Positions 8,308 through 27,007 of a stretch of 41,670 bases of DNA are shown in pieces (positions within the stretch are counted from its first letter, which is position 1; the number at the start of each line of letters is the position of its first letter). Position numbers and translations under genes: made by a program. This DNA comes from Candidatus Latescibacterota bacterium (lineage in GTDB: Bacteria; Krumholzibacteriota; Krumholzibacteriia; Krumholzibacteriales; Krumholzibacteriaceae): contig JAHOYU010000012.1 of assembly GCA_019038625.1 (NCBI GenBank), positions 1-41,670 of the forward strand, in the 5' to 3' direction. A model generated the notes under the pieces. The model made no database searches and was not told where the DNA came from. It saw only the letters and a list, made by a program, of their open reading frames with translations.

Positions 8308-9867
8308 TCAATTTTCGGCTACTTTGTTGCTCTTCTTGAGAGTGTAGAGTCCTCCCATACCGATCAAGAGCATAATCGCAGACTGTATCCAGGTCTTGGG
8401 AGGAATGCCGCCACTGGTTGCATTAACGAAAATGACCATGCCGCCTGAAATGAATACTAAAAGACCGTAGATGAAGAACATGACTTTTCTGGCCTTGTTG
8501 CGGGTCTCTTCTGTGTCTTCCCCGAACAGTTTGTTGTAAATGATCAGGGCGAACATCGTCACCACTCCGAGAGCGGCGAATACAAGCCAGAAATTCCGCA
8601 ATGTAGTGGAGACGTCAGGTTTGCCTACAAGAGGAGCAAGGATCGAGTGATACATCTCACCACCGACATTCGAGCCGACGAGAGAACCTATTACTCCATA
8701 TAGAAAAGCATATCCCATATAGGTAGCCTTTTTGTCCTGCGGGGCTACCAGGCCGATATAGCTGTAGTACTTCGGATGACAGGTCATCTCTCCGATCGAG
8801 AATATCGCGATTCCGAGGATGAAGATCCAGGCATGCTGTGAAAACGCGAGAAAGAGGAACCCGGCCGACCCGATCAGGATACCGCCTACCATCGACGGCA
8901 GAGGCTTGAAGTTTTTTACGATCATATTCACAAAGATCTGAAGGATCACTATCGTACCCGCGTTTATCACCGTGACGTGCTCGGGGCCGAGTTTGAAGTT
9001 CATCCCCATACCGGCAAAGAAATTGTTTATCGGCGCCGGGTCGATGAAGTCCCGGAGATACCAGAGTACCGATCCGAAGTTCTGAAAATAGAGGATCCAG
9101 AAACAGGAATAGACGAAGATGAGAAGCATGAAGCGGGCATCCGAGAGTACAGTGAGGGCCCCCGAGAGCACTTCAGCAAAGCTCTTCCGATTCTTCGGTT
9201 TCGGCGGATCCCTGTATATGAAGATGGTCGGCAGAAGCATCAGAGCGCAGTAAATCGAACTGATCGTGAACACCCAGCTCCAGGAAAGGGTATCCCTTAT
9301 ATATCCGGCCACGAGGGGTGCTACGAGAGCGCCGAGGTTGATCATCCAGTAATAGACTCCGAACCCGAATCCCGAATTCTTTTCGTTTGTCGTTCTCGCG
9401 ATTGTACCGGAGATTATCGGTTTAAACAGGCCCGAGCCTGTGGCCATTACGAGCAGTGTGACGAATATCACGCCATAACTGGAAACCTGTCCCGACATGA
9501 AGTAACCCGCGGATAGCAGAGAGAAGGCTACGAGAAGCATCTTTCTGTACCCGTACCTGTCCGCAAGGGCGCCGCCAAGGATCGGTACGATGTAAGTCAA
9601 TGCGTAGACGAAACTCTGCAGGAGTCCGACCATGTCTGCGGTAAAGCCCAGCCCGCCGTTGCGGACATGTTCGGAGAGATAGATGGCCAGAAGGGCGTTC
9701 AATCCGTAATATGCTCCCCTTTCGAAGAGCACCATCACGTTCGCTACCCAGAAGGAGCGGGGGAAAGAGCCTGCTCCGGTCTTTAATTCAGGTTGGTTCT
9801 CCACTTGTGGTCTGTCCTTTCCGGGTCGATCCCTTTTGTAGAGTCTGCGTACTGTGATCGGCAGCAA
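8308..9867 (-). CDS. POT/PTR-family proton-dependent oligopeptide transporter
   Basis: This MFS protein of up to 519 residues has about 12-14 hydrophobic helices and belongs to the proton-coupled peptide transporter family, which imports di- and tripeptides through the inner membrane. The signature VLFERGAYYGL near residue 47 corresponds to the ExxER-YYG motif of helix 1, and YYWMINLGALVAPL corresponds to the second PTR2 signature. The first glutamate of ExxER is missing: a valine is in that place. It starts at TTG 9867; a GTG at 9804 is an alternative that would remove a basic leader. The lipoprotein gene is coupled downstream. Family is firm; substrate and coupling ion may differ from classical members. 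Confidence 0.86.
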   Translation of the reverse strand: MLPITVRRLYKRDRPGKDRPQVENQPELKTGAGSFPRSFWVANVMVLFERGAYYGLNALLAIYLSEHVRNGGLGFTADMVGLLQSFVYALTYIVPILGGALADRYGYRKMLLVAFSLLSAGYFMSGQVSSYGVIFVTLLVMATGSGLFKPIISGTIARTTNEKNSGFGFGVYYWMINLGALVAPLVAGYIRDTLSWSWVFTISSIYCALMLLPTIFIYRDPPKPKNRKSFAEVLSGALTVLSDARFMLLIFVYSCFWILYFQNFGSVLWYLRDFIDPAPINNFFAGMGMNFKLGPEHVTVINAGTIVILQIFVNMIVKNFKPLPSMVGGILIGSAGFLFLAFSQHAWIFILGIAIFSIGEMTCHPKYYSYIGLVAPQDKKATYMGYAFLYGVIGSLVGSNVGGEMYHSILAPLVGKPDVSTTLRNFWLVFAALGVVTMFALIIYNKLFGEDTEETRNKARKVMFFIYGLLVFISGGMVIFVNATSGGIPPKTWIQSAIMLLIGMGGLYTLKKSNKVAEN

Positions 9868-9981
9868 TACATGCCGCTAATTACTGAACTCGGGGGGGGT
9901 TCCCCACAAGATTTTACCTGGGGTTGAATCTAGCAGAAACGAAAGGTTGAATAAATATAAATTACCTGGACGCGAGCCGAA

Positions 9982-10365
9982 TCAGTTCCGAAATCGCAGT
10001 TCGAAATTACCGATACCGATCAGATCACCTTTCTTAAGTTTGGTCTTGTGGACTTCGTTTCCGTTTATGGACGTCCCATGCCTGCTGTTAAGGTCCTCCA
10101 GGACGTAGTAGTTATCGCTCTTTGTAATCGTAGCGTGTTGATCGGAAACGAACGAGTGGTCGAGACAGACATCACACGATATATCGCTTCCTAGAACGGT
10201 AGTGTCTTTCTTCAGAGGGATCTCAAGACCGGAGAAACATCCATTGGTGATCGTGATGCCGGCGCGGCCGTTCTTATGTTTTGAACAGTTATTCCTGCCT
10301 GTTTTCGTAGAGTATTTTCTTGGTTTTGTTCCGGTCGAACCGGAACGTATGTTGTTTATTTTCAT
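9982..10365 (-). CDS. Small FHA-domain protein
   Basis: The 127-residue protein has a basic N-terminus and one forkhead-associated domain, which binds phosphothreonine peptides. The FHA signatures are visible in order: TVLGSDISCDV, VSDQHATI and DLNSRHGTSING, then a terminal FELRF strand. The start at ATG 10365 is chosen for the AAAGG seven bases upstream and because a sigma-54-type promoter at 10423-10438 lies inside the longer open frame, so starts above it would not be transcribed. It lies downstream of prsR. No Ser/Thr kinase is in the window, so its partner is unknown. The promoter suggests it is a member of the PrsR regulon (inference). Confidence 0.85.
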   Translation of the reverse strand: MKINNIRSGSTGTKPRKYSTKTGRNNCSKHKNGRAGITITNGCFSGLEIPLKKDTTVLGSDISCDVCLDHSFVSDQHATITKSDNYYVLEDLNSRHGTSINGNEVHKTKLKKGDLIGIGNFELRFRN

Positions 10366-10728
10366 TATCGGACCTTTCTCAAAGTGAAGGATCGGACCGG
10401 ATAGTTGATCCACGCGGAGTTTCGCAATTTCCGTACCATTGAGTGTCGGGGCTGGTTCGTTCCACCTTGGGGGTGTACGTGGAAGCGGCCGTTCAGGAAG
10501 GATATCGTGCAAGCTCAGGGAATTAAGGGGAACAATAAGGATCATCGGGATATGATTCGGCACAGGTCATGAAGATCAAAAGAAGTTCGGGAAACAGATA
10601 AGGATCGGTGGGAGATTAGTCCTCCGCGGTCGGTAGAGATGATCATGGAATACCTCGATGGCGTCGTAAAAAGCACGATTGAGTGGAGTGGGACTCCGTG
10701 AGGACAGGGGTGGCAACGGACCCGGGGA
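10366..10728. other. Intergenic region between prsR and the FHA gene
   Basis: These 363 bases hold no gene that I can support. The open frame extending upstream from the FHA gene has no ribosome site and crosses a sigma-54-type promoter. Apart from that promoter I see only weak short inverted repeats, including a 5-bp TCCGT/ACGGA stem around 10695-10722 that could mark the prsR 3' end, without a T-run. Confidence 0.5.
10423..10438 (-). promoter_or_regulatory. Sigma-54-type promoter of the FHA gene
   Basis: The minus strand reads TGGTACGGAAATTGCG. This matches the -24/-12 consensus TGGCAC-N5-TTGC with one change in the -24 box and exactly 12 bases between GG and GC. Transcription would begin near 10412, about 47 bases before the FHA start. 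It is the third such element in the PEP-CTERM island, next to the gene for a sigma-54 activator. Confidence 0.65.
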
Positions 10729-12153
10729 TTATTTTTTCTTTGCAGGAGGCCTGAATTCCGCCGGGTCGATATTGTGCTTGTTCATCAGATCATGAAGGGT
10801 GGGTCGGCTGATATCGAGTTCCTGTGAGGCCGCCGAAACATTACCTGCGCATCTGAGAAGCGTGTTCAGAATCAGCCTTTCCTCGGTGTCATCCCTCGCC
10901 TCTTTCAAGGATACAAGTTTATCGGTACAGATCAGGTCAGGGCTCCCCGGAATTCTGATTTCCTCATCCCTGACATCTCCGGTTACCGGGAGATCGAGAT
11001 CGGCCGGTTGAATGATCTTGCCGGTAGACATTATGACCGCCCGTTTGACCCTGTTCTCAAGTTCACGAACATTTCCCGGCCATGGGTACTTATACAGATT
11101 CATCTGTGCGGCCTGGCTGAACCCCCTGACGTTTTTCGAAAATTCGTTGCGATACTGGTACAGAAACCTCATGGCGAGAAGCAGAATATCGTCATCTCTC
11201 TCTTTCAACGGGGGAAGAGAGACCGCGATAGTGTTTATCCTGTAGAAAAGGTCTTCCCTGAAGGTCCTTTCCTCGATCATATCGGCCAGATCCCTGTTCG
11301 TGGCTGCAACTACACGCACGTCTACCTGAATGGGCTGCTGGCCGCCGACCCGCTCTATGACCTGATCCTGGAGAAATCTCAGTATCTTGACCTGGAGTGC
11401 AAGAGGAAGCTCTCCGATCTCGTCCAGAAAAAGGGTGCCGCCGTTCGCTATTTCGAACTTGCCAGGCCTGGACGAATCGGCGCCGGTAAAACTGCCCTTT
11501 TCGTGTCCGAACAGTTCGCTTTCGAGCAGGTTTTCCGGTATGGCACCGCAGTTGATAGGGATGAATGGCTTGCCTTTTCTACTGGATCGGTGGTGAATGG
11601 CTCTGGCGATCAATTCTTTTCCTGTGCCGCTTTCCCCGGTGATCAGGACCGATACGTCGGTCGTGGCGACTTTTCTGACAGTTTCAAACACCTCCAGCAT
11701 CGATGGAGACATCGCGATGATTCCTTCGAAATCACCACCCGGCTTGAGGCTTTTTGTCAGCCCGGCCAGCTCGGTTTCGAGGGAATGTATATATGCAGCC
11801 CTGTTAAGTATTATCCGGAGTTCCTCGATCTCCACCGGTTTCGAGTAGAAGTCCACAGCTCCGGCTTCGAGAGCCTTCAGTGCGTTTTCACGGTCGTCAT
11901 GCCCGGTGATGACGATCACCTTCAGCCCGGGTGATATATCGAGCGAATCGTTGAGTACCTGGAACCCCTCCAGGATGCCGGAGCCTGGTGTGAGGGAAAG
12001 ATCCAGGATCATCAAGGCCGGCGCTTCGGTCCTTACCGTTTCTACCGCTTCTTTGGCGGACACTGCGGTAAGGATCTCATATTCCTTCTTGTATGCCCAC
12101 TTGAGCTGTTTGAGGATGGCTTCTTCATCATCTACTATAAGGAGTTTCGTCAC
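10729..12153 (-). CDS. prsR: PrsR: PEP-CTERM-system sigma-54-dependent response regulator
   Basis: This 474-residue NtrC-type regulator has a receiver domain (Asp8-Asp9, phospho-acceptor Asp51 in LILDLSLTPG, Lys105), an AAA+ sigma-54 activation domain (Walker A GESGTGKE at 173-180; GSFTGA at 220-225 where GAFTGA is canonical; Walker B LFLDE at 241-245; arginine-finger region FREDLFYRIN) and a C-terminal Fis-type helix-turn-helix (CAGNVSAASQELDISRPTLHDLM). The LSLTPG receiver context and the gene partner are typical of PrsR, which activates PEP-CTERM genes together with RpoN. It starts at GTG 12153, 12 bases after the prsK stop, with AAAGGA upstream. It is the last gene of the exosortase operon, whose promoter is itself sigma-54-like. 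Confidence 0.93.
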   Translation of the reverse strand: MTKLLIVDDEEAILKQLKWAYKKEYEILTAVSAKEAVETVRTEAPALMILDLSLTPGSGILEGFQVLNDSLDISPGLKVIVITGHDDRENALKALEAGAVDFYSKPVEIEELRIILNRAAYIHSLETELAGLTKSLKPGGDFEGIIAMSPSMLEVFETVRKVATTDVSVLITGESGTGKELIARAIHHRSSRKGKPFIPINCGAIPENLLESELFGHEKGSFTGADSSRPGKFEIANGGTLFLDEIGELPLALQVKILRFLQDQVIERVGGQQPIQVDVRVVAATNRDLADMIEERTFREDLFYRINTIAVSLPPLKERDDDILLLAMRFLYQYRNEFSKNVRGFSQAAQMNLYKYPWPGNVRELENRVKRAVIMSTGKIIQPADLDLPVTGDVRDEEIRIPGSPDLICTDKLVSLKEARDDTEERLILNTLLRCAGNVSAASQELDISRPTLHDLMNKHNIDPAEFRPPAKKK

Positions 12154-12165
12154 CAGGATTTCCTT

Positions 12166-14292
12166 TCATCGGTTTCCCGGAACAAACCGGTCAGGCTCAT
12201 TTGACGGGGGGAGTATAACCGAAACCCTGGCTCCGTTTCCAGGGATATTGCCAGCGCTGATCTTTCCTCCGTGAGCCTCCACCAGTCCACGGCACAGCAC
12301 GAGGCCGATTCCCAGGCCGTTCTGTTTCGTGCTGCTGAAGGGCTTGAAAAGACTGGTTTCAAGGTAGCCTGGATCGAACCCGGGCCCGGTGTCGGTCACG
12401 TCGATAAAGAGAACACCTTCGTCGTCCACCCTGGTGTCGAGATCGATCTCACCTCCGGGTGGAGTCGATTCTATGGAATTCAAAACGAGATTCTCTACGA
12501 TACGCTCAAGTGCGGAAGGATCGATTTCCGCGATCTGGGCCTTGGGACAGTCGAACCGTATTTCTATGTCTCTTGCGAGTGCCACATTCGAAATCGCCGA
12601 TAGTTTCCCGCGGATCACGGATGAAATGTCCGTTTTCTTCCGGACGATCGTGCCGGGTGATTTATGGGCGTTCAGGGAGTCGATCAGAGCACGCATCTTA
12701 TCCACAGACCGGTTGATCGTGTCTATGGTGTCTTTCTGAAATTCCTTGTCGTCTATATTGTCTTTTGCGTTTTCGGCGGTCAGAGAGAGCATCCCCACCG
12801 TGTTTTTCAGGTCGTGGATCACGAACGACGCGAAACGGTTGAATGATTCGATCTGGCTTGATTCGAGTATCTTCTCCTCCATGAGGAGATTTTCCAGTGT
12901 TATAGTGGCCTGGTCCGAGACACTGGTCAGAAAGTCGCGGTCTTCCTCAGTGTATGATCTTCCCATATCCTTGCGTCCCAGGGCTATTACGCCACGGCAT
13001 TCTTCGCCATGGCGGAGGAAGGCGACCGCCTCGACCCAGGTCGCAAGGCCGCTTCGCCTGTTGTTTTCCTCAAGCTGCAGGAGTCTTTTCAGTTCATGGT
13101 TTCGGCGTCCGAGGATGACCATCTCCCCGTCCGGTCGGTTCTCGAAAAGGGAGCGGGCCTCTTCCTCGCTCCAGTTGTCCGAAGTAAGACCGTAAGTAGA
13201 AGGTCGTTCGTTCTCGATGTCAAACCAGATAATGCCTTTTCTGACCATTACCGTTTCGCAGAGGGAACTGATCGTGTTCGAGGCAAGATCATTCACCGAA
13301 CTGCTCGAGGCCATCAGCGTGGCGTAATGCCGCCACTCCTTCCTGTAGTTGTATCTTCCGACCAGGAAGTTGTCGTTCATGAATCGTCGCAATCTCCTGC
13401 GCGCGTTGCCTGACATCAACGTAGCAGCCAAAAGGAAGATCGCAAAGACCCCTGCCACGTAGAATCCAGACCGGTCGAATGAAAGTCCAGCCAGCGCTGA
13501 AATGTAATAGACGAGGGCTATGGACAGGATGTACAGTCCGGCGACTATCACGGATAGAACAGAAGAGTTCTCCGAACGCATCCTCGTTCTGATATCAAAC
13601 AGCGGATACCTCAGGTCGGCATAGAGAAAAGATGCTGCGACCAGCATCATGCCGCAGGTCTCCAGGACCATCGACTGCAGGTCGACTATCGAAAGGGACA
13701 GGGCCTTCCCGATTACGAACAGATTGATGAGGGATGCGGTGAATATGCCGAGTGTCGGGTATTTCAGCGTCACCTTGGCTGGTACGTTGGCAGTCCTGTA
13801 AGTGTTTTCGATGCCATAAAGAAAAAAGACGTTGGCTATGATGAAGATCATCCCAAGTGTCTTGCCCGCTCCTGTGATGGTGACGCTCCAGAACAACATC
13901 TCCTCTGTAAACGAGATCTCTTTAATGATCATCCTTGCCGGGAGAAACAGCGCGAGCAATCCGAGAAGCAGGCCAAGGGTTATGATCCCCGGCATTCGTT
14001 TTCTGGTCGACTCCCGATCGATGCTTCTGGCGAAAAAGAAGAAAAAAGGAATGCCGAAGGTCGGGAATATCATCATCAGGCCGATCATTATCCGGAATTC
14101 CGAAAGAGCGATATCGGGCGAAGATGAACGGATCAACAGGCCCTGGGCGAGCATTATCGAGGACATCATCAGCGCAGACAGGATGTAGAAGACTTTCTGA
14201 GTGCTGAATCTGCCACGGACCGACGCAGTGAGCACGGACAGCAGGAGCATACCCGAAGCAGCAAGGGAGAAGGTCGAGGGGAGTCTGATCAT
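12166..14292 (-). CDS. prsK: PrsK: PEP-CTERM-system membrane histidine kinase
   Basis: PrsK is the sensor kinase that partners PrsR. The 708-residue protein has about eight N-terminal membrane helices (to about residue 305), a GAF-like domain (about 325-470), then the kinase core: His493 in the PrsK-type motif FVIHDLKN, and an ATPase domain with LVLNSIEST, DTGPGFD and GLGIGLVL. The start is ATG 14292, with AAGGAG six bases upstream, and it forms an ATGA overlap with the stop of the TPR lipoprotein gene. A longer open frame to 14367 would run into that gene and is rejected. The prsR start lies 12 bases downstream. The signal it senses is unknown. Confidence 0.93.
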   Translation of the reverse strand: MIRLPSTFSLAASGMLLLSVLTASVRGRFSTQKVFYILSALMMSSIMLAQGLLIRSSSPDIALSEFRIMIGLMMIFPTFGIPFFFFFARSIDRESTRKRMPGIITLGLLLGLLALFLPARMIIKEISFTEEMLFWSVTITGAGKTLGMIFIIANVFFLYGIENTYRTANVPAKVTLKYPTLGIFTASLINLFVIGKALSLSIVDLQSMVLETCGMMLVAASFLYADLRYPLFDIRTRMRSENSSVLSVIVAGLYILSIALVYYISALAGLSFDRSGFYVAGVFAIFLLAATLMSGNARRRLRRFMNDNFLVGRYNYRKEWRHYATLMASSSSVNDLASNTISSLCETVMVRKGIIWFDIENERPSTYGLTSDNWSEEEARSLFENRPDGEMVILGRRNHELKRLLQLEENNRRSGLATWVEAVAFLRHGEECRGVIALGRKDMGRSYTEEDRDFLTSVSDQATITLENLLMEEKILESSQIESFNRFASFVIHDLKNTVGMLSLTAENAKDNIDDKEFQKDTIDTINRSVDKMRALIDSLNAHKSPGTIVRKKTDISSVIRGKLSAISNVALARDIEIRFDCPKAQIAEIDPSALERIVENLVLNSIESTPPGGEIDLDTRVDDEGVLFIDVTDTGPGFDPGYLETSLFKPFSSTKQNGLGIGLVLCRGLVEAHGGKISAGNIPGNGARVSVILPPSNEPDRFVPGNR

Positions 14293-15782
14293 CTTGAGCT
14301 CCTTATCCTCTCTATCTGTTTTTCTGCTTCGGTATCTATTCCCGTGTCCGGATATCTTTCGATGCATTCGGCGAGGATCGCTGTGGCCCTCTCCGTGTCG
14401 CCAAGTTCATTCTCGAAAATCGATGCGGCCAGCAGGTAGTTGCCCCTGAACTTGTGATAATCGGGATATTTTTCAGGCAGGCCGAGGAGGTGTTCAGCAG
14501 CTTCATTCCACTTGCCGTCTTCTGAATAGGCGCGGACGATATATTCTTCCGCCAGTATTCTTACTCCTTCGTTGTACTGTTCAGAGATGAGTTTTTTGAA
14601 TTGATCCATGGCTCTGTCAAAGGCGCTTTTGGTGGCTTCTCTTTCACCCAGCTCGCGAAAATGGGTCACGATGCGGAGAGGAGCTTCCATGCCCTGTATC
14701 GTTGATGGATAGTTAGTGTATGTCAACTTGTAATGAAGCGCCGCGCTGATCCAGTCGTTTTCCGATTCGGCGATCCTGGCAAGCTGCCATGCAGCTTCAG
14801 CCGCCTGGGCTGTGGCCCCGCTGTGTTCTTCGACGATTTCGTTGTAAATGTTTTCAGCCTTCCGCAATTCTCCCTGTTTGAAATAGATGCCGGCGATATC
14901 GATCATGGCAGGAAGAGCCTGATGTGAGTCGGGATATTCATCGATGATTTCTTTAAGTAAGGGTATGGCACGCTCGGGCCTGCCCAGGCCTTCTGTCTCG
15001 GTCCTGGATTCGAGAAACAACAGGGATGGTATGTCGGAAGGGTTATTGTAAAGTCGTTTCATTCCTGCAATCGTCGTTCGGGCCTCATTCCATCTTTTTC
15101 CCTGGAGGAGGGCAGTCAGCAGGTTGTATCGCGTCTCTCTGACCAGAAGGCTGTCTGTGGATGAGGCGATCAGATTGTTAAATATCTTTTCAGCTTTTCC
15201 GAGCCACCGGCCCGACTCTATCTCGGCACCAAGCATCGAGTGGATCCCAGCTATTCGTACAGGTGTGACCAGGTAGCGATTATTCATGTGGAACGTAGCC
15301 TCAGCCTTGTCGGGGGTCAGGTATTCAGAGACGAACATCTCGAAGAATTTCAGGGAAGAGGCATGGTCGTTCATCTCCAGCGATATGTATCCGGCGGACC
15401 AGATCGCATTGGCCCTCGCCTCTGTTATCGTTTCCTTCATGTCGGCGACAACAGCGAAGTCGTCTCGGGCTTCCTCGATCATCCCGGCTCTGAATTCGAG
15501 TTCGGCGAGTTCCATCCGGGCCGAAACGACAATCAGTTCCATACCCTCTATTTCACCACGCTGAGGGTCGTATTTCTCCACTATCCCGTTGTATGCGGCC
15601 AGTGTCCTGTCGAGGAATTCCCTGTTCATCGATGCTACAACAAGTTCACGATTCAATTTTCTCGCGTTGAACAGATCTTTCTCCGCATTGTAAAGGTCGC
15701 TGTCTCCGCCGCAGGAAACACACATGATAGAAAGCATCGCCAGAATAATCGTTGTCGAGATTCCCTGTATCAGGATTTTCAT
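14289..15782 (-). CDS. TPR-repeat lipoprotein of the exosortase operon
   Basis: The 497-residue product has a signal peptide ending MCVSCGGDSD, a slightly atypical lipobox with Cys where Leu is usual at -3, followed by a body made of helical repeats. Several segments read as TPR units (for example AIPLLKEIIDEYPDS, KAENIYNEIVEEHSG and RATAILAECIERYPDT). Its position before prsK recalls PrsT, the large TPR lipoprotein of other PEP-CTERM loci, but it is only about half PrsT length. It probably sits in the envelope and scaffolds protein contacts. The start overlaps the upstream stop by ATGA at 15779-15782 and its own stop overlaps the prsK start, so all three are translationally coupled. Confidence 0.88.
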   Translation of the reverse strand: MKILIQGISTTIILAMLSIMCVSCGGDSDLYNAEKDLFNARKLNRELVVASMNREFLDRTLAAYNGIVEKYDPQRGEIEGMELIVVSARMELAELEFRAGMIEEARDDFAVVADMKETITEARANAIWSAGYISLEMNDHASSLKFFEMFVSEYLTPDKAEATFHMNNRYLVTPVRIAGIHSMLGAEIESGRWLGKAEKIFNNLIASSTDSLLVRETRYNLLTALLQGKRWNEARTTIAGMKRLYNNPSDIPSLLFLESRTETEGLGRPERAIPLLKEIIDEYPDSHQALPAMIDIAGIYFKQGELRKAENIYNEIVEEHSGATAQAAEAAWQLARIAESENDWISAALHYKLTYTNYPSTIQGMEAPLRIVTHFRELGEREATKSAFDRAMDQFKKLISEQYNEGVRILAEEYIVRAYSEDGKWNEAAEHLLGLPEKYPDYHKFRGNYLLAASIFENELGDTERATAILAECIERYPDTGIDTEAEKQIERIRSSR

Positions 15783-16684
15783 CGTTTTCCCTCCATGGAA
15801 GAGGATTCGTGGACTTCTGTCGTCCTGTGGATATAGAAGATCACCGCTCCGGCCGTTATCAGGTAGGTGGCTATAGATTCCATTACAAGGGACGCGATCC
15901 TGCTGTGGATCATGAAATCGGGAGCAAGCTGGAGAGCGATCATTTCAGATTTGAGGCTGAGAAATGTCGTTGGCATAGTCACTATAAAAGGAATCAGAAC
16001 AATAAGCAGTGAAGGGATCGGAAACCTCAGGGCAAACCTGACCGAACCGGGAATGACTTTCCAGAACGGCTGATCCTTGTAAATGATCAATGTGATCGCG
16101 TATAGGAACAACACCTGTATAAGAAGAGCCACGACTACGCCCGATCCGCTGATCGCTATCCTCGTCAGGCCATCGAATCCGCTGGACAGGGACCTTGCGA
16201 TATTGATCGCGGCGAAGACTGCAACAGAACTGATCACGGAGATTCCGACGAGCCTGAAATAGCGACTGCCGGCGAGTCTGAAACTCGCGCCGATCGATGC
16301 GCCCTTTTTTCTGAAAGCCGACGCGATCAGCGATACTGTCGCTGCCTGGAATATTATATGGACGAAAGAGTCGAGGAAGATCTCGACCCTTCCCAATATT
16401 GGTTGCATGAGGATCAGATGACCCGGGAAATGGCCGAGAGCTTCGCTGCTTATCCCTTGCGCGAATGCGGCCCAGAATGTGGTCCAGGGCTCGGCAAGGC
16501 TGTTGACATAAGCTGCCACGAGCAATATCTGCAGCAATAGATACAGCAAGACAGGCAGGATCACCTTGAAATTCTGAAGAAGGGTCACCGAGGTGAAGAA
16601 GGCTCTGGATGCTGTCCTTAATCCGACAGAAAAATTGAATCTTTCTCTCGAGTCGGGGTCGTTCTGTATCATGGAACCTGCCAT
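15779..16684 (-). CDS. Unrecognised six-helix membrane protein of the exosortase operon
   Basis: I do not recognise this family. The 301-residue protein has a cytoplasm-like polar N-terminus and about six hydrophobic segments (approximately residues 40-60, 105-125, 145-165, 175-200, 225-245 and 275-292). No catalytic motif is evident. The long second loop holds EPWTTFWAAF. Its ATG at 16684 directly follows the epsI stop (TAAATG), and its stop overlaps the TPR lipoprotein start by ATGA. Such tight packing between epsI and prsK suggests a role in the sorting system or in signal input to PrsK (inference). A second ATG at 16672 is possible. Confidence 0.85.
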   Translation of the reverse strand: MAGSMIQNDPDSRERFNFSVGLRTASRAFFTSVTLLQNFKVILPVLLYLLLQILLVAAYVNSLAEPWTTFWAAFAQGISSEALGHFPGHLILMQPILGRVEIFLDSFVHIIFQAATVSLIASAFRKKGASIGASFRLAGSRYFRLVGISVISSVAVFAAINIARSLSSGFDGLTRIAISGSGVVVALLIQVLFLYAITLIIYKDQPFWKVIPGSVRFALRFPIPSLLIVLIPFIVTMPTTFLSLKSEMIALQLAPDFMIHSRIASLVMESIATYLITAGAVIFYIHRTTEVHESSSMEGKR

Positions 16685-17353
16685 TTAACCATCTTTCCTT
16701 TCCGAGCCGGACTTTTCGCCGATCGCAGACATGATCGCCGGAGAAAGCTCCTCCATGAATGGAAGAAGACGTTTCCTGGCGGTTGCTTCCGATCCCTCAG
16801 TGATGGGAGTGGAAAACCTGATAAATGCCGCCGCCTGGGAACGCGACAGCAATGCACTTTTCATCTGGTGAAATTTCAGTGCGAACTCATCCGGGATGAA
16901 TTCGCCGTTCATGCTGAACCAGTATATCACAAGTCGGCGTGATCCGCCGTCTGTGATCACCAACTCTTTCGCACGGTTCTTTTTGCTGCCGACAGCGATG
17001 ATGACTCCACTTTCGGAAATTATATTCCATCCCGATCCTGGATAGCAATGTTTCGGCGAATGTATCTGCGAGTTTTCCTGCTGCCTGGCAAAATATCCGA
17101 GGAAAAGTTCGATGGTCCCTTCTTCTCCCGTATAGGAGCGTGCCAGCGTGGTGTCAGCGCCAAGGAGGCGAAGGGATTCCGGTTCGATATACTCTTCGAC
17201 AGCGCTATAGCCGATTGTCTGCAGGGGGATGGCTGAGAGGTCGGGAAGTGCGGTGGTCGGTGCTTCCCTGTATCTGAGCACATATGTATAGATAGTGAGC
17301 GCGGCCAGTATTGCTGATAGAACGACAAGGCGAGATCTGTTTACTTTATCCAT
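16685..17353 (-). CDS. epsI: EpsI-family exosortase-associated protein
   Basis: EpsI proteins accompany exosortases, either as a separate gene or fused to the C-terminus of the exosortase. The 222-residue product has one N-terminal membrane anchor (about residues 9-25) and an extracytoplasmic domain with the family signature IHSPKHCYPGSGW, in which Cys103 is conserved. The chosen start is ATG 17353, with GGAG seven bases upstream; it overlaps the exosortase stop by 13 bases. An ATG at 17371 would add six residues. Its stop touches the start of the next membrane protein. EpsI function remains poorly known; the family call is firm. Confidence 0.9.
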   Translation of the reverse strand: MDKVNRSRLVVLSAILAALTIYTYVLRYREAPTTALPDLSAIPLQTIGYSAVEEYIEPESLRLLGADTTLARSYTGEEGTIELFLGYFARQQENSQIHSPKHCYPGSGWNIISESGVIIAVGSKKNRAKELVITDGGSRRLVIYWFSMNGEFIPDEFALKFHQMKSALLSRSQAAAFIRFSTPITEGSEATARKRLLPFMEELSPAIMSAIGEKSGSERKDG

Positions 17354-18195
17354 TTCAACACTCCGGCACATAGCATAAGCAGGAGGAGTCCTGCCAGGAA
17401 GACGATCAGTCCCGATATCTCATGGAGCGGACCATCGGCAAATCCGGCCCCGACGGTGTATGCGCCGAGAGCCGTTACGACGAGCCTGATCATATTAGCT
17501 GCGATTGCTACAGGGACCGAACAGGCGACTAGAATTATTTTTTTTGTTTTCCCAAGGGACGAGAAGTACGCGAATACCATCGAAAGGGTGATCATCGTCA
17601 TCAATGACCTGAGTCCGCTGCAAGCGGCGACTACTTCCAGTGTATAACCGGGAAGCATCAGGATGTTACCCTTCCGTATGACGCTTACTCCGATCGTGCG
17701 CAGGATGACTGAGCTTAGTCTCGCGCTGAGTATCTGCATCGGGAAGGTCATCTTGAAGTATATGATATAGGGGAGGGGAACCATCATCAGCAGGAACAGG
17801 ATCGGAAAAGCGATCTTTCCCGCAAATCCCCGTCCGCGTAGATACAGGGTGGTCCCGAAAATCATCAAGGGAATCGATATCCTGGTCGTGAAGAGCTCGG
17901 AGGCAGCCGTGCCCGTTATCAGGAGGCCCGCGGCAATAACGATCAGAAACAGGCCGTAGAGGTTGCCGGTATTTTTATATGACCCTGAAAGGGAATCGCG
18001 GTCACGCCAGATGATGAGGCCTGATATCAGGGGTATGAGTAGTCCGTGCCTGTAATTGGGATCCGACATCCATTGGCTGGCGAGGCCTCTGATGACAGGC
18101 AGGTACAATGCTATGGCCAGTATCACACAGGTGAGAAACAATACTTTCTTTATCACCCGGGATCCGTCTGTTGGCGTTTCGGCTGAAAGGCCCAA
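17341..18195 (-). CDS. epsH: Exosortase (EpsH family), PEP-CTERM protein sorting transpeptidase
   Basis: Exosortases are polytopic membrane cysteine proteases thought to cut C-terminal PEP motifs and transfer the protein to a surface acceptor. The 284-residue product has about eight membrane helices and all three conserved residues: Cys192 in AACSGLRSL, Arg237 in ANMIRLVV and His258 in PLHEISG. The start is TTG 18195, with GGAGG six bases upstream. The open frame reaches a GTG at 18288, but a sigma-54-type promoter at 18272-18287 lies within that extension, so the shorter start is preferred. EpsI is a separate overlapping gene and not fused as in many XrtA proteins. The substrate gene lies just upstream. 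Subclass not determined. Confidence 0.92.
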   Translation of the reverse strand: MGLSAETPTDGSRVIKKVLFLTCVILAIALYLPVIRGLASQWMSDPNYRHGLLIPLISGLIIWRDRDSLSGSYKNTGNLYGLFLIVIAAGLLITGTAASELFTTRISIPLMIFGTTLYLRGRGFAGKIAFPILFLLMMVPLPYIIYFKMTFPMQILSARLSSVILRTIGVSVIRKGNILMLPGYTLEVVAACSGLRSLMTMITLSMVFAYFSSLGKTKKIILVACSVPVAIAANMIRLVVTALGAYTVGAGFADGPLHEISGLIVFLAGLLLLMLCAGVLKWIK

Positions 18196-18271
18196 GATGC
18201 CCCTCCATTCCGGCAAGTTGTTATTCAGCGATACTATAAGGTTTTCACTAGTTTCGGCAAGGAGAATGAGC

Positions 18272-18287
18272 AGCAAAAGGGATGCCA
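18272..18287 (-). promoter_or_regulatory. Sigma-54-type promoter of the exosortase operon
   Basis: The minus strand reads TGGCATCCCTTTTGCT, with GG and GC 12 bases apart as in -24/-12 promoters. Transcription would start near 18261, about 66 bases before the exosortase TTG. It sits right after the terminator of the PEP-CTERM gene, so the operon ending in prsK-prsR has its own promoter and may be autoregulated. Confidence 0.72.
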
Positions 18288-18288
18288 C

Positions 18289-18343: not shown

Positions 18344-19072
18344 TCAACCGACCTTTTTCTTTCTCAGAAGAGGAGCTATTCCGATGAGCCCGAGCCCTAG
18401 CAGGCTCAGGGTGCCAGGTTCGGGAGTCGCGAAGTAACTCGAGTCATGGCAGTAGGAGTTGGTGTAGGTCCTGCCCTTTGAGTCGACGCCGATCGCATCG
18501 AAGTGAGCCCAGTCGAAACCGCTCACTACCACGTCCATCAATATCTCGTCACCCCATCCGGCTGCACCGATGATGCCGTGGTCGTAATGCCATGCACTGG
18601 CCTGATCGTTATCGATCCTGCCGATATTGTGAAAGTTGAACTTTCCGTACAGGGCAGGGGGTAAAGTGCTGAGGTATATGTCAGGAAATGCGCCGACAGG
18701 GACAGAGGCTCCATATGTGTAGAAAGAGTTTATCTCTACGCCATTGATCCAGACTGTGCCCGATTCGTTCCAGGGAACGCTGATTGCCAGGTAACAGTCC
18801 ATATAATCGTAGGTAGGTACGCTGCTTGTGACAAAAGGAACGTATCCTCCGCCGATATCATACTCGGTCGTAGCCGAAACTCCCCAGTAGCCTACGACCT
18901 TAAGGTCGAATTCCTGCGAATGGGTGATCCACGATCTGCTGTCGATCGAACTGTACCTCTCGGCATACTCCGAGTCGACGATGTAGGTCTGCAGCCGTGG
19001 TACCGCATATGCAGAGCCGAAGGTCGCCAGGATCACGATAGCCGTAAGTGAAAGCAGTGTAATCTTTTTCAT
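18344..19072 (-). CDS. PEP-CTERM sorting-domain protein (exosortase substrate)
   Basis: The 242-residue protein has an N-terminal signal peptide (cleavage near SAYAVPR) and a C-terminal PEP-CTERM domain: the motif PEPGTLSLLGLG, a hydrophobic helix and a basic RKKK end. These are the hallmarks of proteins recognised and anchored or released by exosortases. The 190-residue middle part is rich in Tyr, Trp, Gly and Ser with no enzyme motif, as is common for such surface proteins. The ATG at 19072 has AAGGAG five bases upstream. A sigma-54-type promoter lies 71-86 bases upstream. The exosortase gene follows on the same strand after a terminator. It is the only PEP-CTERM protein I see in the window. 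Confidence 0.93.
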   Translation of the reverse strand: MKKITLLSLTAIVILATFGSAYAVPRLQTYIVDSEYAERYSSIDSRSWITHSQEFDLKVVGYWGVSATTEYDIGGGYVPFVTSSVPTYDYMDCYLAISVPWNESGTVWINGVEINSFYTYGASVPVGAFPDIYLSTLPPALYGKFNFHNIGRIDNDQASAWHYDHGIIGAAGWGDEILMDVVVSGFDWAHFDAIGVDSKGRTYTNSYCHDSSYFATPEPGTLSLLGLGLIGIAPLLRKKKVG

Positions 19073-19142: not shown

Positions 19143-19158
19143 GGCAATTGGTATGCCA
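19143..19158 (-). promoter_or_regulatory. Sigma-54-type promoter of the PEP-CTERM gene
   Basis: The minus strand reads TGGCATACCAATTGCC: a -24 box TGGCAT, five bases, and a -12 box TTGC with exact 12-base GG-GC spacing. Start of transcription would be near 19132, giving a leader of about 60 bases. Sigma-54 promoters are known for PrsR-controlled PEP-CTERM genes, and prsR lies in the adjacent operon. Confidence 0.72.
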
Positions 19159-19334: not shown

Positions 19335-19943
19335 TCAGCGACTCCTTCTCACGCGGGACGCTCCGAGACGTCCCGATGAGGATATAGATGACCTTCTCCG
19401 GCTGCTTCCTCCGCGCCTGGTGCCCATCCGGGGACTTTTTCTATATGTCCCTCTGCTGCCGGTACTGATACTTCTTTTGAAATTCGAGGAATTGAAAGGA
19501 GCGCGTCTTATGCCCGCCAGCCTGGCGCTTGCGGGGCTTTTCGGCATGTTCTGGCCTCTGGATGCTCCACTCCTCTCCCTCGTGCTCAGGGAAAAGTAGT
19601 TGGATCTGATTCCCTTGCGGATAAATCCGCCCGAATTGATCCGGCTGTTCCAGGTCATGGAACTGCTGCCAGGAATAAGGACCGACGACATGCCCGAAAC
19701 AGTCCTCGAGCCGTAACGTCGCCTGGCTCTTGACCTTTTGCCGTAAACCGGGGTCATCATTGTGGACCGTCCACCAGAACTCCTGTTCACTGCGGTTTCC
19801 CAGTTCCTGTCCAGAGTATTCGATTGTTCGACTGCCCAGTCAAACATCTCACTGTTCGCCGTGTCGGCACGACCAGCCGCAAAAGCGGGGGCGGAAGCCG
19901 AAAAGACGAGCAGGAAAATTGAAATAGCGATGAAATAGCGCAT
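19335..19943 (-). CDS. Secreted Ser/Arg/Gly-rich basic protein
   Basis: I do not recognise this family. The start ATG 19943 has AAGGAA about seven bases upstream; the open frame runs 15 codons further without a ribosome site. The 202-residue product begins with a clear signal peptide (cleavage near APAFAAG). After a short acidic-neutral part (residues about 25-50) the rest is low-complexity, dominated by Arg, Ser and Gly, ending RRGGSSRRRSSISSSGRL and a basic tail. Its charge is strongly positive, so it may bind acidic polysaccharide, nucleic acid or the cell surface. It lies between a DUF5916 gene and the PEP-CTERM gene but has no PEP motif and its own terminator. Confidence 0.72.
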   Translation of the reverse strand: MRYFIAISIFLLVFSASAPAFAAGRADTANSEMFDWAVEQSNTLDRNWETAVNRSSGGRSTMMTPVYGKRSRARRRYGSRTVSGMSSVLIPGSSSMTWNSRINSGGFIRKGIRSNYFSLSTRERSGASRGQNMPKSPASARLAGIRRAPFNSSNFKRSISTGSRGTYRKSPRMGTRRGGSSRRRSSISSSGRLGASRVRRSR

Positions 19944-20092
19944 GACCGTTTCCTTTTCAGTATCTATATATAATTTGATTATCTGCAAATTTAGCGGATT
20001 TAGACACTAGGGTCATGTTACGCAGAGAGTAGAAGAGGAGAGATTCTTCTGTTCACATAAAAAGCATAGCATATTGTCGAATCCCGTGTCAA

Positions 20093-24616: not shown

Positions 24617-27007
24617 TCATCGGAGCAGAACGGCTTTTCTGCTGATCTTCGAGTCAGGTGTCCTGAGGATGTAGAAGTAGACTCCGCTCGACAGGTTTTC
24701 CGGCTGCCAGGGCACTGAATGGGGCCCGGATTCCATCTCGCGGTCCAGGATGGTCTCGACCATGCGTCCAGCAGCATCATAGACGGTCAGGCTGACCCTG
24801 CCCGAGGCTGGAAGGGAGAAGCTGATCGTCGTCACCGGGTTAAAAGGATTCGGCTGGTTCTGCCCGAGGGTCAATGGGGATGGAGTGGTGACAGAGGAAG
24901 TCGATTCGACCACATCGATGGTAGATCTGTACATCAGCCTGTCATGAGCAGTCACTGTCAGAATCAAAGAATCGATTTCCGCGCCCAGCGGACCGCCAGT
25001 CGGAATGATGAGCCTGCCGGCTTCATCAGAGAAGGAGACACCGACACAATCGTTGCCGTCATATAAAGAAGCAAGGGCACCCGGGATATCTGTTTCGGCG
25101 ACCAGGAACAGTTCGTCCCTCCCTGTTTCTGCCGGATGGGTCACAGGGAGCGTGGATGGTGTCGAAGTCCAGCCGTCCATGGCCGGGTCACCGAGAAGGT
25201 TGAGACAGTAGTAGCACCAGCGGTGTGCTCCCGGCTCGTATTCATCAGGAAGGTCTACGAACGGCGCGGTCTCATCTTTAGCTCTCCCCAGGGCATCTCC
25301 GAGCATCGAAATGCCCTCGGCAAAGATTGCGTCGAAGAATTCTCTCTGAAAGTGGTGGGAGGGTCCGTTTGTCGTCCCCTCTGTAAACCATCCGTATCTT
25401 GAATGGCAGAGCAGGGCAGAGGCATATGTATCGATAGTGACCATAGTCTCACATATGCAGTCATCGGCGTCGAAAGCGCCTGCGTAACAGCCATAAGTGT
25501 AGACGATGGGGAAATTCGTCGAGATACCGTCATTGGTAAAATTGGATGTGTTGACATCGCCGACGCCCAGCCGCATCGCGTAGTATGTGTTTGAATGTCC
25601 CGCGTGGCTCAGCCAGCCTGTTCCAGCGTTTACAGCCGCGTAAAGCATAGCCGCGGACCAGCTCCCAAGGTCCCGGTCATAATATCGCGTGATATCGAAG
25701 CCTTCAGGGATGCCGTTGGTAGTGAATCCCCAGGTGCCGCATTCGCCGACCAGCTGGTCCATCTCGTCTCCGCCCCAGGTCAGAGGGCTCGAATATAGAT
25801 GCTCGCCGAGCAACAGCGACTTTTCCAGATCGCCAGTGACCGGCGATTCCTGATACATGACGACCTTGTTTATAAATGCGGCGGCCTCGGCCGGAGAATC
25901 GACCGGCGCCCTGCCTACAGAGATCTCCTGGTAGAGGTCGTCCTCGCCGGGCTCGCCCCACAGGGCATCCCCGTCTGTGTTCCAGTCGCCGTCGAGTGCG
26001 GCGAAGTAAATATCGGAGGGTATATTTCCGTCCTCATATAGAGAGGAAGATTGAACGGCACAGTACAGGCCTCTGAACGGCACGCTCGCGACTCCCCCCG
26101 GGTCGCCGTCGCCGGCAAGGAGAAGGTATCCTATGCCCTGTGTCATGTACTGGTCTATTACAGCGGAACGGATCTTTTCAGCGGTATCGCTGCCAGTCCA
26201 CCCCGCGTCTATATCTTCGACGGTCATTATACTGGTCCGAATCCCACGCTTCTCATAATGATCTCTAAGCGGAGTAAACTCGCCGGCCATCGAAGCTGTT
26301 GAGATGATCAGATAATCATATCCTGTGCCGGCAGCGATCGAACCACCTCTGGCATCAGTCATGGGGACGGCTGACGGGTTATCGACCAGGCTTGTCAGTC
26401 TGTCCCTGGTGATTTTATCCCACCTGATGAACCGCAATGCTTTCGCCGCCGCTGCTCCAGGGGCCGTCTCTATTACGATCTCGACTTCGCTGTACCAGCC
26501 AGCCTCAGACGTAGCGGGATTGTACGATACAGGTGAGAAACAGCCCGTGGCGATCGCATGACCCCTGAGGAAATGTGTTCTGAAATCGCTATCGGCTGGA
26601 TCAGTCATCCTGTCGATCAGGTATGCCTCCTGCAAGAACAGAAATCCGTTGTTTCGTCCATCGTCGGCAGGATCCGATCCGGGCCGGACATACTGCCTTG
26701 GATGAAGTCGGATCGATTCCGATATCGGTCTCCAACCCTTCCTTATGATTTTCGAAGCTATTGCTTCTTCGCCCTCGGGGAGGAGGATCCGCACTCCGTG
26801 GAACGGGAATTCCGGCTCACCAGGTTTTCCTGCCTGGATAACGCCGGGAAAGAATATTCTCTGAAAGCCATTTCCGGCGCTTTCGATAACGGGATCTTCG
26901 AAATGACAGACCAGTCGGACTTCACCGGCGTTGACTTTAGCATGAAGGAACAGGCCTGAGGAGGCGACAATCAGCACCAGAGATGTGGCAAGAGATGATA
27001 GTTTCAT
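24617..27007 (-). CDS. C25 (gingipain-like) secreted cysteine protease with C-terminal sorting domain
   Basis: The 796-residue protein has a signal peptide, a propeptide-like N-terminal domain (to about residue 230) and a C25 catalytic domain with probable dyad His471 in LSHAGHSN and Cys507 in YTYGCYAGAFD; the 36-residue spacing resembles that of gingipains. The last 80 residues begin with QNQPNPFNPVTTISFSLP and continue as a FlgD-like Ig sandwich (SLTVYDAAGRMV, SSGVYFYIL), ending KAVLLR. This tail is the type found on proteins exported by type IX secretion or its relatives. The ATG at 27007 lacks a ribosome site and lies seven bases after a perfect TATAAT, so the mRNA may be leaderless. No T9SS core gene is visible. 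Confidence 0.92.
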   Translation of the reverse strand: MKLSSLATSLVLIVASSGLFLHAKVNAGEVRLVCHFEDPVIESAGNGFQRIFFPGVIQAGKPGEPEFPFHGVRILLPEGEEAIASKIIRKGWRPISESIRLHPRQYVRPGSDPADDGRNNGFLFLQEAYLIDRMTDPADSDFRTHFLRGHAIATGCFSPVSYNPATSEAGWYSEVEIVIETAPGAAAAKALRFIRWDKITRDRLTSLVDNPSAVPMTDARGGSIAAGTGYDYLIISTASMAGEFTPLRDHYEKRGIRTSIMTVEDIDAGWTGSDTAEKIRSAVIDQYMTQGIGYLLLAGDGDPGGVASVPFRGLYCAVQSSSLYEDGNIPSDIYFAALDGDWNTDGDALWGEPGEDDLYQEISVGRAPVDSPAEAAAFINKVVMYQESPVTGDLEKSLLLGEHLYSSPLTWGGDEMDQLVGECGTWGFTTNGIPEGFDITRYYDRDLGSWSAAMLYAAVNAGTGWLSHAGHSNTYYAMRLGVGDVNTSNFTNDGISTNFPIVYTYGCYAGAFDADDCICETMVTIDTYASALLCHSRYGWFTEGTTNGPSHHFQREFFDAIFAEGISMLGDALGRAKDETAPFVDLPDEYEPGAHRWCYYCLNLLGDPAMDGWTSTPSTLPVTHPAETGRDELFLVAETDIPGALASLYDGNDCVGVSFSDEAGRLIIPTGGPLGAEIDSLILTVTAHDRLMYRSTIDVVESTSSVTTPSPLTLGQNQPNPFNPVTTISFSLPASGRVSLTVYDAAGRMVETILDREMESGPHSVPWQPENLSSGVYFYILRTPDSKISRKAVLLR

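Follow-up and report, generated by a model that had tools for sequence, protein, structure and literature searches.

An unassigned membrane protein gene in an exosortase gene set

What does a membrane protein of no named family do in the middle of an exosortase gene set? The question is raised by the window, the whole 41,670-nucleotide stretch analysed here (contig JAHOYU010000012.1 of assembly GCA_019038625.1), which comes from a member of the Krumholzibacteriota. One strand carries a compact set of genes encoding a PEP-CTERM protein, an exosortase, EpsI, a six-helix membrane protein of 301 amino acids (hereafter MP; ORF 15779-16684, minus strand), a TPR lipoprotein, PrsK and PrsR. The first-pass annotation had suggested that MP might be a third component of the sorting complex or the sensor input for PrsK. 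The features considered below are these:

10729..12153, minus strand: PrsR, sigma-54-dependent response regulator (TIGR02915, 574.1 bits, cut-off 502.6)
12166..14367, minus strand: PrsK histidine kinase (TIGR02916, 303.1 bits, cut-off 300)
14289..15782, minus strand: TPR-repeat lipoprotein, the most constant partner of MP and not PrsT (TIGR02917, 21 bits, cut-off 312; N-terminal motif; junctions)
15779..16684, minus strand: MP, predicted six-helix inner-membrane protein of an unnamed family (ORF, junctions, family, pLDDT 94, dN/dS)
15917..15928, minus strand: MP codons 253-256, L-x-P-[DE], the second conserved motif, in the loop joining helix 5 to helix 6 and including P255 (alignment A3)
16409..16504, minus strand: MP codons 61-92, loop joining helix 1 to helix 2 and including P87 and the motif GE-x(2-3)-HYP, here SEALGHFP (alignments A1 and A3, charge distribution)
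16685..17371, minus strand: EpsI/DUF3485 (PF11984, 8.7e-45; TIGR02914, 117 bits)
17341..18288, minus strand: exosortase of the EpsH family, no named Xrt class given (PF09721, 1.4e-64; TIGR02602, 181 bits)
18272..18287, minus strand: sigma-54-like -24/-12 element TGGCATCCCTTTTGCT, before the exosortase-MP operon (scan; recurrence in related loci)
18344..19072, minus strand: PEP-CTERM protein, choice-of-anchor N (PF07589, 5.9e-6; NF038141, 71.8 bits)
19143..19158, minus strand: sigma-54-like element TGGCATACCAATTGCC, preceding the PEP-CTERM gene (scan; recurrence in related loci)

Pfam and NCBIfam profiles confirmed the earlier calls for the flanking genes, namely DUF3485/EpsI, the EpsH exosortase, the TPR lipoprotein, PrsK and PrsR. 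The exosortase translation contains C-S-G-L-R, N-M-I-R and H-E-I-S-G, and so has the Cys, N-x-x-R and H-x-x-x-G elements of the family. Its likely substrate is the choice-of-anchor N PEP-CTERM protein encoded at 18344..19072. The genome as a whole has just three PF07589 matches above the cut-off, one of them beside the exosortase, suggesting few substrates.

MP had been described as lying between epsI and prsK. This is correct on the epsI side, where the stop codon TAA (16687-16685) is followed directly by the MP start codon (ATG, 16684-16682); on the other side the neighbour is the TPR lipoprotein gene, and prsK comes one gene further. The MP stop codon (TGA, 15781-15779) overlaps the start of the TPR gene (ATG, 15782-15780) as ATGA. 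Both junctions (TAAATG and ATGA) read as first reported. MP is a real gene under purifying selection at the protein level: compared with its nearest relative, an 87% identical copy from the same genus, dN is 0.065 and dS 0.375, with 21, 23 and 65 differences at the three codon positions.

MP belongs to a coherent family outside existing models

A protein search of 98 genomes returned about 22 clear MP homologues and several distant ones. They form a coherent family, which profiles built from alignments A1-A3 extended beyond the phylum. In the final search strong matches scored at least 77 bits and a truncated copy in G003 scored 37 bits; the next weak matches (34-37 bits) fell in G323, G335 and G351, none of which has a detected exosortase. 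Because the last profile contains sequences from other phyla, the unbiased discovery is that of the earlier profile search.

Alignment A3 shows P87 to be invariant in 32 sequences and P44, S214 and P255 to be nearly so, with P255 conserved in at least 90%. The clearest motif, GE..(L)HYP, lies in the loop after helix 1 (the HYP loop), and a second, L-x-P-[DE], lies between helices 5 and 6 (the PE loop).

That MP matches no known family, as the first-pass annotation had it, was upheld by Pfam and NCBIfam scans of MP and all family members, which gave sub-threshold matches only and none for the protein of the window. A few members matched GPDPase_memb (PF10110) at 13-16 bits (best 16.4, cut-off 29.6), at corresponding positions around helices 4-5, and one matched the BPSS1780 family (BPSS1780_fam, NF041043) at 23.3 bits against a cut-off of 90. 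One reading of these matches is that MP transports small solutes or lipids, in the manner of CysZ or GPDPase_memb, and is only incidentally part of the operon. The likeness to GPDPase_memb is confined to those few members and helices; no phosphodiesterase domain was seen in MP, and GPDPase_memb itself was not found among the 98 relatives.

The predicted fold loosely resembles CysZ and PNS1

AlphaFold2 models of MP reached a pLDDT of 84 with alignment A1 and of 94 with alignment A3, to which rows from other phyla had been added. The latter contains six membrane helices, in agreement with the helix count given initially. Amphipathic helices at residues 18-35, 131-140 and 207-220 are each followed by two membrane helices. 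The suggestion of an internal three-fold repeat is slight, with only units 2 and 3 scoring above shuffled columns (10.5, where the highest of 30 shuffles reached 8.9). Positive charge is concentrated at the N-terminus and in loops 2 and 4, from which both ends of the protein and these two loops are predicted to face the inside, and the HYP and PE loops to be periplasmic.

This predicted arrangement, in which a pair of membrane helices follows each of three amphipathic helices, resembles the fold of CysZ (EI24, PF07264; described in PMC5967866) and of CTL1/PNS1 (SLC44). When the first model was compared with the PDB using Foldseek, PNS1 and CysZ were the best full-length matches, with probabilities of 0.99-1.00 for most chains (up to 1.00 for CysZ and 0.99 for PNS1) and E values of 0.14-0.83. 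With the second model CysZ was retrieved at a probability of 0.84-0.91 and an E value near 1; the 50 matches listed did not include PNS1. Overall, CysZ probabilities spanned 0.84-1.00, TM scores 0.46-0.54 (query) and 0.55-0.69 (target), and E values 0.16-1.3.

This resemblance counts in favour of the transporter reading, and we treat it as a lead and not as family membership, since the E values (0.14-1.3 for CysZ and PNS1 together) are statistically weak and the better model lowered the rank of CysZ. CTL1/PNS1 proteins, moreover, have ten membrane helices. Profile comparison with hhalign found no relation of MP to EI24, exosortase, EpsI, PrsK or TPR profiles; for EI24/CysZ the probabilities were 0.4 and 0.1 percent, with an EI24 profile of three sequences. 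The MP profile had no match among PDB sequences, and Foldseek against viral structures returned nothing useful. The HYP and PE motifs are conserved within the MP family, and its distribution, described next, follows that of exosortase, which would be unexpected for a general nutrient transporter. A transporter that is a bystander in the operon thus appears distinctly unlikely.

MP and exosortase occur together

We surveyed 387 genomes, 80 inside and 307 outside the Krumholzibacteriota. Within the phylum 27 genomes have a full-length exosortase and 33 have MP, which none of the 27 lacks; of the 53 that lack a full-length exosortase, 47 lack MP too (Fisher p 7e-16, a value that ignores shared ancestry and so overstates the strength of the association). 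Outside the phylum, exosortase is present in 10 of the 11 MP genomes compared with 51 of 307 overall, with a Fisher p of 7e-8, or 4e-7 using a profile blind to those sequences, again ignoring shared ancestry. The eleventh genome, G352, is a draft with PEP-CTERM proteins, and its sister G215 has an exosortase. The co-occurrence that the first-pass annotation had named as support for the link is therefore strong on both sides of the phylum boundary, and across the 387 genomes homologues were not widespread where exosortase is missing.

Joint absence points the same way. MP and exosortase are both missing, separately, from members of families f1, f2, f3, f4, f6 and f7, and family f5 lacks exosortase and strong MP matches throughout. 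G020 has a short PF09721 match only and no MP. Short, weak PF09721 matches of this kind (frames of about 190-365 amino acids), seen also in G033, G007, G023 and others, are separate from the full-length exosortases and possibly archaeosortase-like.

Six genomes inside the phylum have MP and lack exosortase. In four (G006, G040, G044 and G047) MP sits at the edge of a contig or close to it; one of these, G044, encodes a PEP-CTERM protein. The other two, G035 (99% complete) and G036, keep MP and the TPR lipoprotein as a pair, have no exosortase or PEP-CTERM match and are real exceptions to the linkage; the pair can therefore persist without the sorting system. Conversely, MP was not detected in 41 of the 51 genomes outside the phylum that carry exosortase, so MP is not needed for exosortase function in general.

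A TPR lipoprotein is the most constant neighbour of MP

Close homologues preserve the order exosortase-EpsI-MP-TPR-PrsK-PrsR as far as the contigs reach. In other lineages MP lies beside a TPR lipoprotein gene with exosortase adjacent in G288, G147, G285 and G144, and in G272 over two contigs. G194 has an exosortase near MP and an ORF between MP and the TPR gene. In G215, G284 and G316 the MP-TPR pair is kept and exosortase is encoded elsewhere. MP adjoins neither exosortase nor TPR gene in family f4 (G026, G030 and G037), although in G026 and G030 a related lipoprotein is found near exosortase, away from MP. An fn3 lipoprotein replaces the TPR lipoprotein beside MP in G375.

The most constant neighbour of MP is thus the TPR lipoprotein. 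The two genes often share a 4-base start/stop overlap across loci of several lineages, and in most loci the motif [YF]xAE[KR] is conserved at the mature N-terminus of the lipoprotein, which follows the lipobox Cys. The lipoprotein of the window has no specific family model above its cut-off and is distinct from PrsT (PrsT-type TIGR02917, 21.1 versus 312.2 bits).

Along locus L129 of G144 (8546-10912) the reading frame runs from MP into the TPR lipoprotein without an intervening stop codon; the junction codons include no ATG or GTG, and the only TTG lies inside a signal-peptide-like stretch. Our first reading was a gene fusion; because a lipobox remains, the frame may instead reflect a lost stop, and we give the case little weight.

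The neighbourhoods also bear on whether the pair serves primarily in surface polysaccharide export or assembly, its linkage to exosortase reflecting the known tie between exosortase and exopolysaccharide. Exopolysaccharide export systems include TPR lipoproteins such as AlgK. MP lies near Wzz/GNVR and Poly_export genes in G035, near a polysaccharide biosynthesis (flippase-type) gene in G036, and near heparinase-like and glycosyltransferase genes in G030; according to PMC1569441, exosortase loci classically lie within exopolysaccharide loci. The operon of the window, in contrast, is outside any polysaccharide biosynthesis cluster, most MP genomes carry exosortase, and the f5 genomes, which also belong to the Krumholzibacteriota, have no strong MP match. 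We consider a primarily polysaccharide role unlikely, and what probability it retains is owed to G035, G036 and family f4.

PrsK is probably not an obligate partner

The gene order MP-TPR-PrsK-PrsR, found in the window and in other lineages, would suit a protein that senses the state of sorting or of the envelope and passes the signal to PrsK/PrsR. G215 and G352 have these genes as a four-gene unit without adjacent exosortase, and in G375 a short ORF directly after MP at a contig end weakly resembles the PrsK N-terminus (12.8 bits). However, when PrsK was scored with TIGR02916 (E<=1e-40) in 79 genomes, 16 MP genomes had no match (G003, G004, G013, G026, G030, G032, G035, G036, G037, G039, G044, G047, G144, G194, G285 and G316), five of them (G003, G004, G013, G044 and G047) represented by cut or incomplete assemblies. 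Ten genomes have PrsK and exosortase without MP (G120, G135, G170, G176, G265, G308, G314, G343, G361 and G364). PrsK also has a membrane region of its own, and the available portion of PMC1569441 reports no MP-like protein in the proteobacterial PrsK/R/T systems. Its absence from so many MP genomes argues against PrsK as an obligate partner, and the sensor input proposed in the first-pass annotation is improbable as the core role of MP. The data are still compatible with MP reporting to PrsK where both exist.

Sigma-54-like elements recur upstream of exosortase and PEP-CTERM genes

Elements resembling sigma-54 promoters were found upstream of exosortase in 13 of 23 loci and upstream of PEP-CTERM genes in 18 of 22 regions, compared with 0.06 expected in either case from mononucleotide shuffles, the sequences in both sets being related to one another. 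Over the window as a whole the count of such elements was not above chance. The element at 18272..18287 overlaps the annotated GTG start of exosortase at 18288, which is therefore probably placed too early, the true start probably lying downstream. Together with PrsR at the end of the gene set, the recurring elements make joint sigma-54 control of MP and exosortase likely, with transcription presumably starting from them.

A candidate accessory module for exosortase

Across several bacterial groups MP is inherited with exosortase and nearly always paired with the TPR lipoprotein, which suggests a functional part of the system that has gone unnoticed. The reading that we favour, and hold to be somewhat better than an even bet, places MP in the inner membrane as an accessory protein of the exosortase/PEP-CTERM pathway, acting with the adjacent TPR lipoprotein. 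Of the original proposal of a third component of the sorting complex, the link to exosortase stands. Because the pair persists in G035 and G036, where neither exosortase nor PEP-CTERM proteins were found, we recast MP as part of an accessory module, probably formed with the TPR lipoprotein.

The sequences themselves establish the family, the compact gene set, its linkage to exosortase and the TPR protein, and the recurrent sigma-54-like elements; the complex, ligand, pathway position and biochemical activity that we propose for this accessory protein are inferred. MP would span the inner membrane with its N- and C-termini facing inwards, its HYP and PE loops forming an outward-facing periplasmic site on which the TPR lipoprotein docks. 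The site might hold a ligand that is lipid-like or a glycolipid, or the end released when a PEP-CTERM protein is cleaved, either for the exosortase-EpsI step or for a subsequent hand-off. The whole set would be transcribed from a sigma-54 promoter under PrsK/PrsR where that pair exists.

The attachment target of exosortase and the exit of sorted proteins from the inner membrane are poorly understood. A more specific and rather doubtful proposal is that MP and the TPR lipoprotein constitute an unrecognised two-protein exosortase module, which binds the cleaved protein, or else an acceptor that is a lipid or glycolipid, at the periplasmic face and carries out acceptor loading or outward hand-off. 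If true, the module would supply a step missing from present exosortase models. In any case, a pair inherited with exosortase in defined lineages offers concrete extra parts to test, and the two genomes that have the pair and lack exosortase are a natural handle on its own role.

The locus resembles the PEP-CTERM/exosortase system with PrsK/PrsR/PrsT of Haft et al. 2006 (PMC1569441) in its EpsH-family exosortase, EpsI, PrsK, PrsR, PEP-CTERM protein and sigma-54-like elements. It differs in the additional six-helix MP and in a TPR lipoprotein that is not PrsT. A search of one literature library found no paper joining exosortase and Krumholzibacteria, and none on a membrane protein of an exosortase operon with a tetratricopeptide protein.

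Further observations at the locus

The MP-TPR pairs at loci L133 and L060, from two genomes in which neither exosortase nor a PEP-CTERM protein was detected, have genes of polysaccharide export or flippase type close by. Where close loci extend far enough, nearly all have a choice-of-anchor N PEP-CTERM gene adjacent to exosortase. Before the PEP-CTERM gene on its upstream side, in the window (19335-19988) and in many related loci, is a gene for a Ser/Arg-rich predicted secreted protein of 217 amino acids, which matched no Pfam or NCBIfam family. Downstream of PrsR, an MFS transporter gene (8308-9867) and an FHA-domain gene (9982-10563) are kept beside the operon in several relatives. Finally, the Peptidase C25 (gingipain-type) protein encoded at 24617-27007 carries a Por_Secre_tail sorting domain, which places a type IX-like sorting signal near the exosortase locus.
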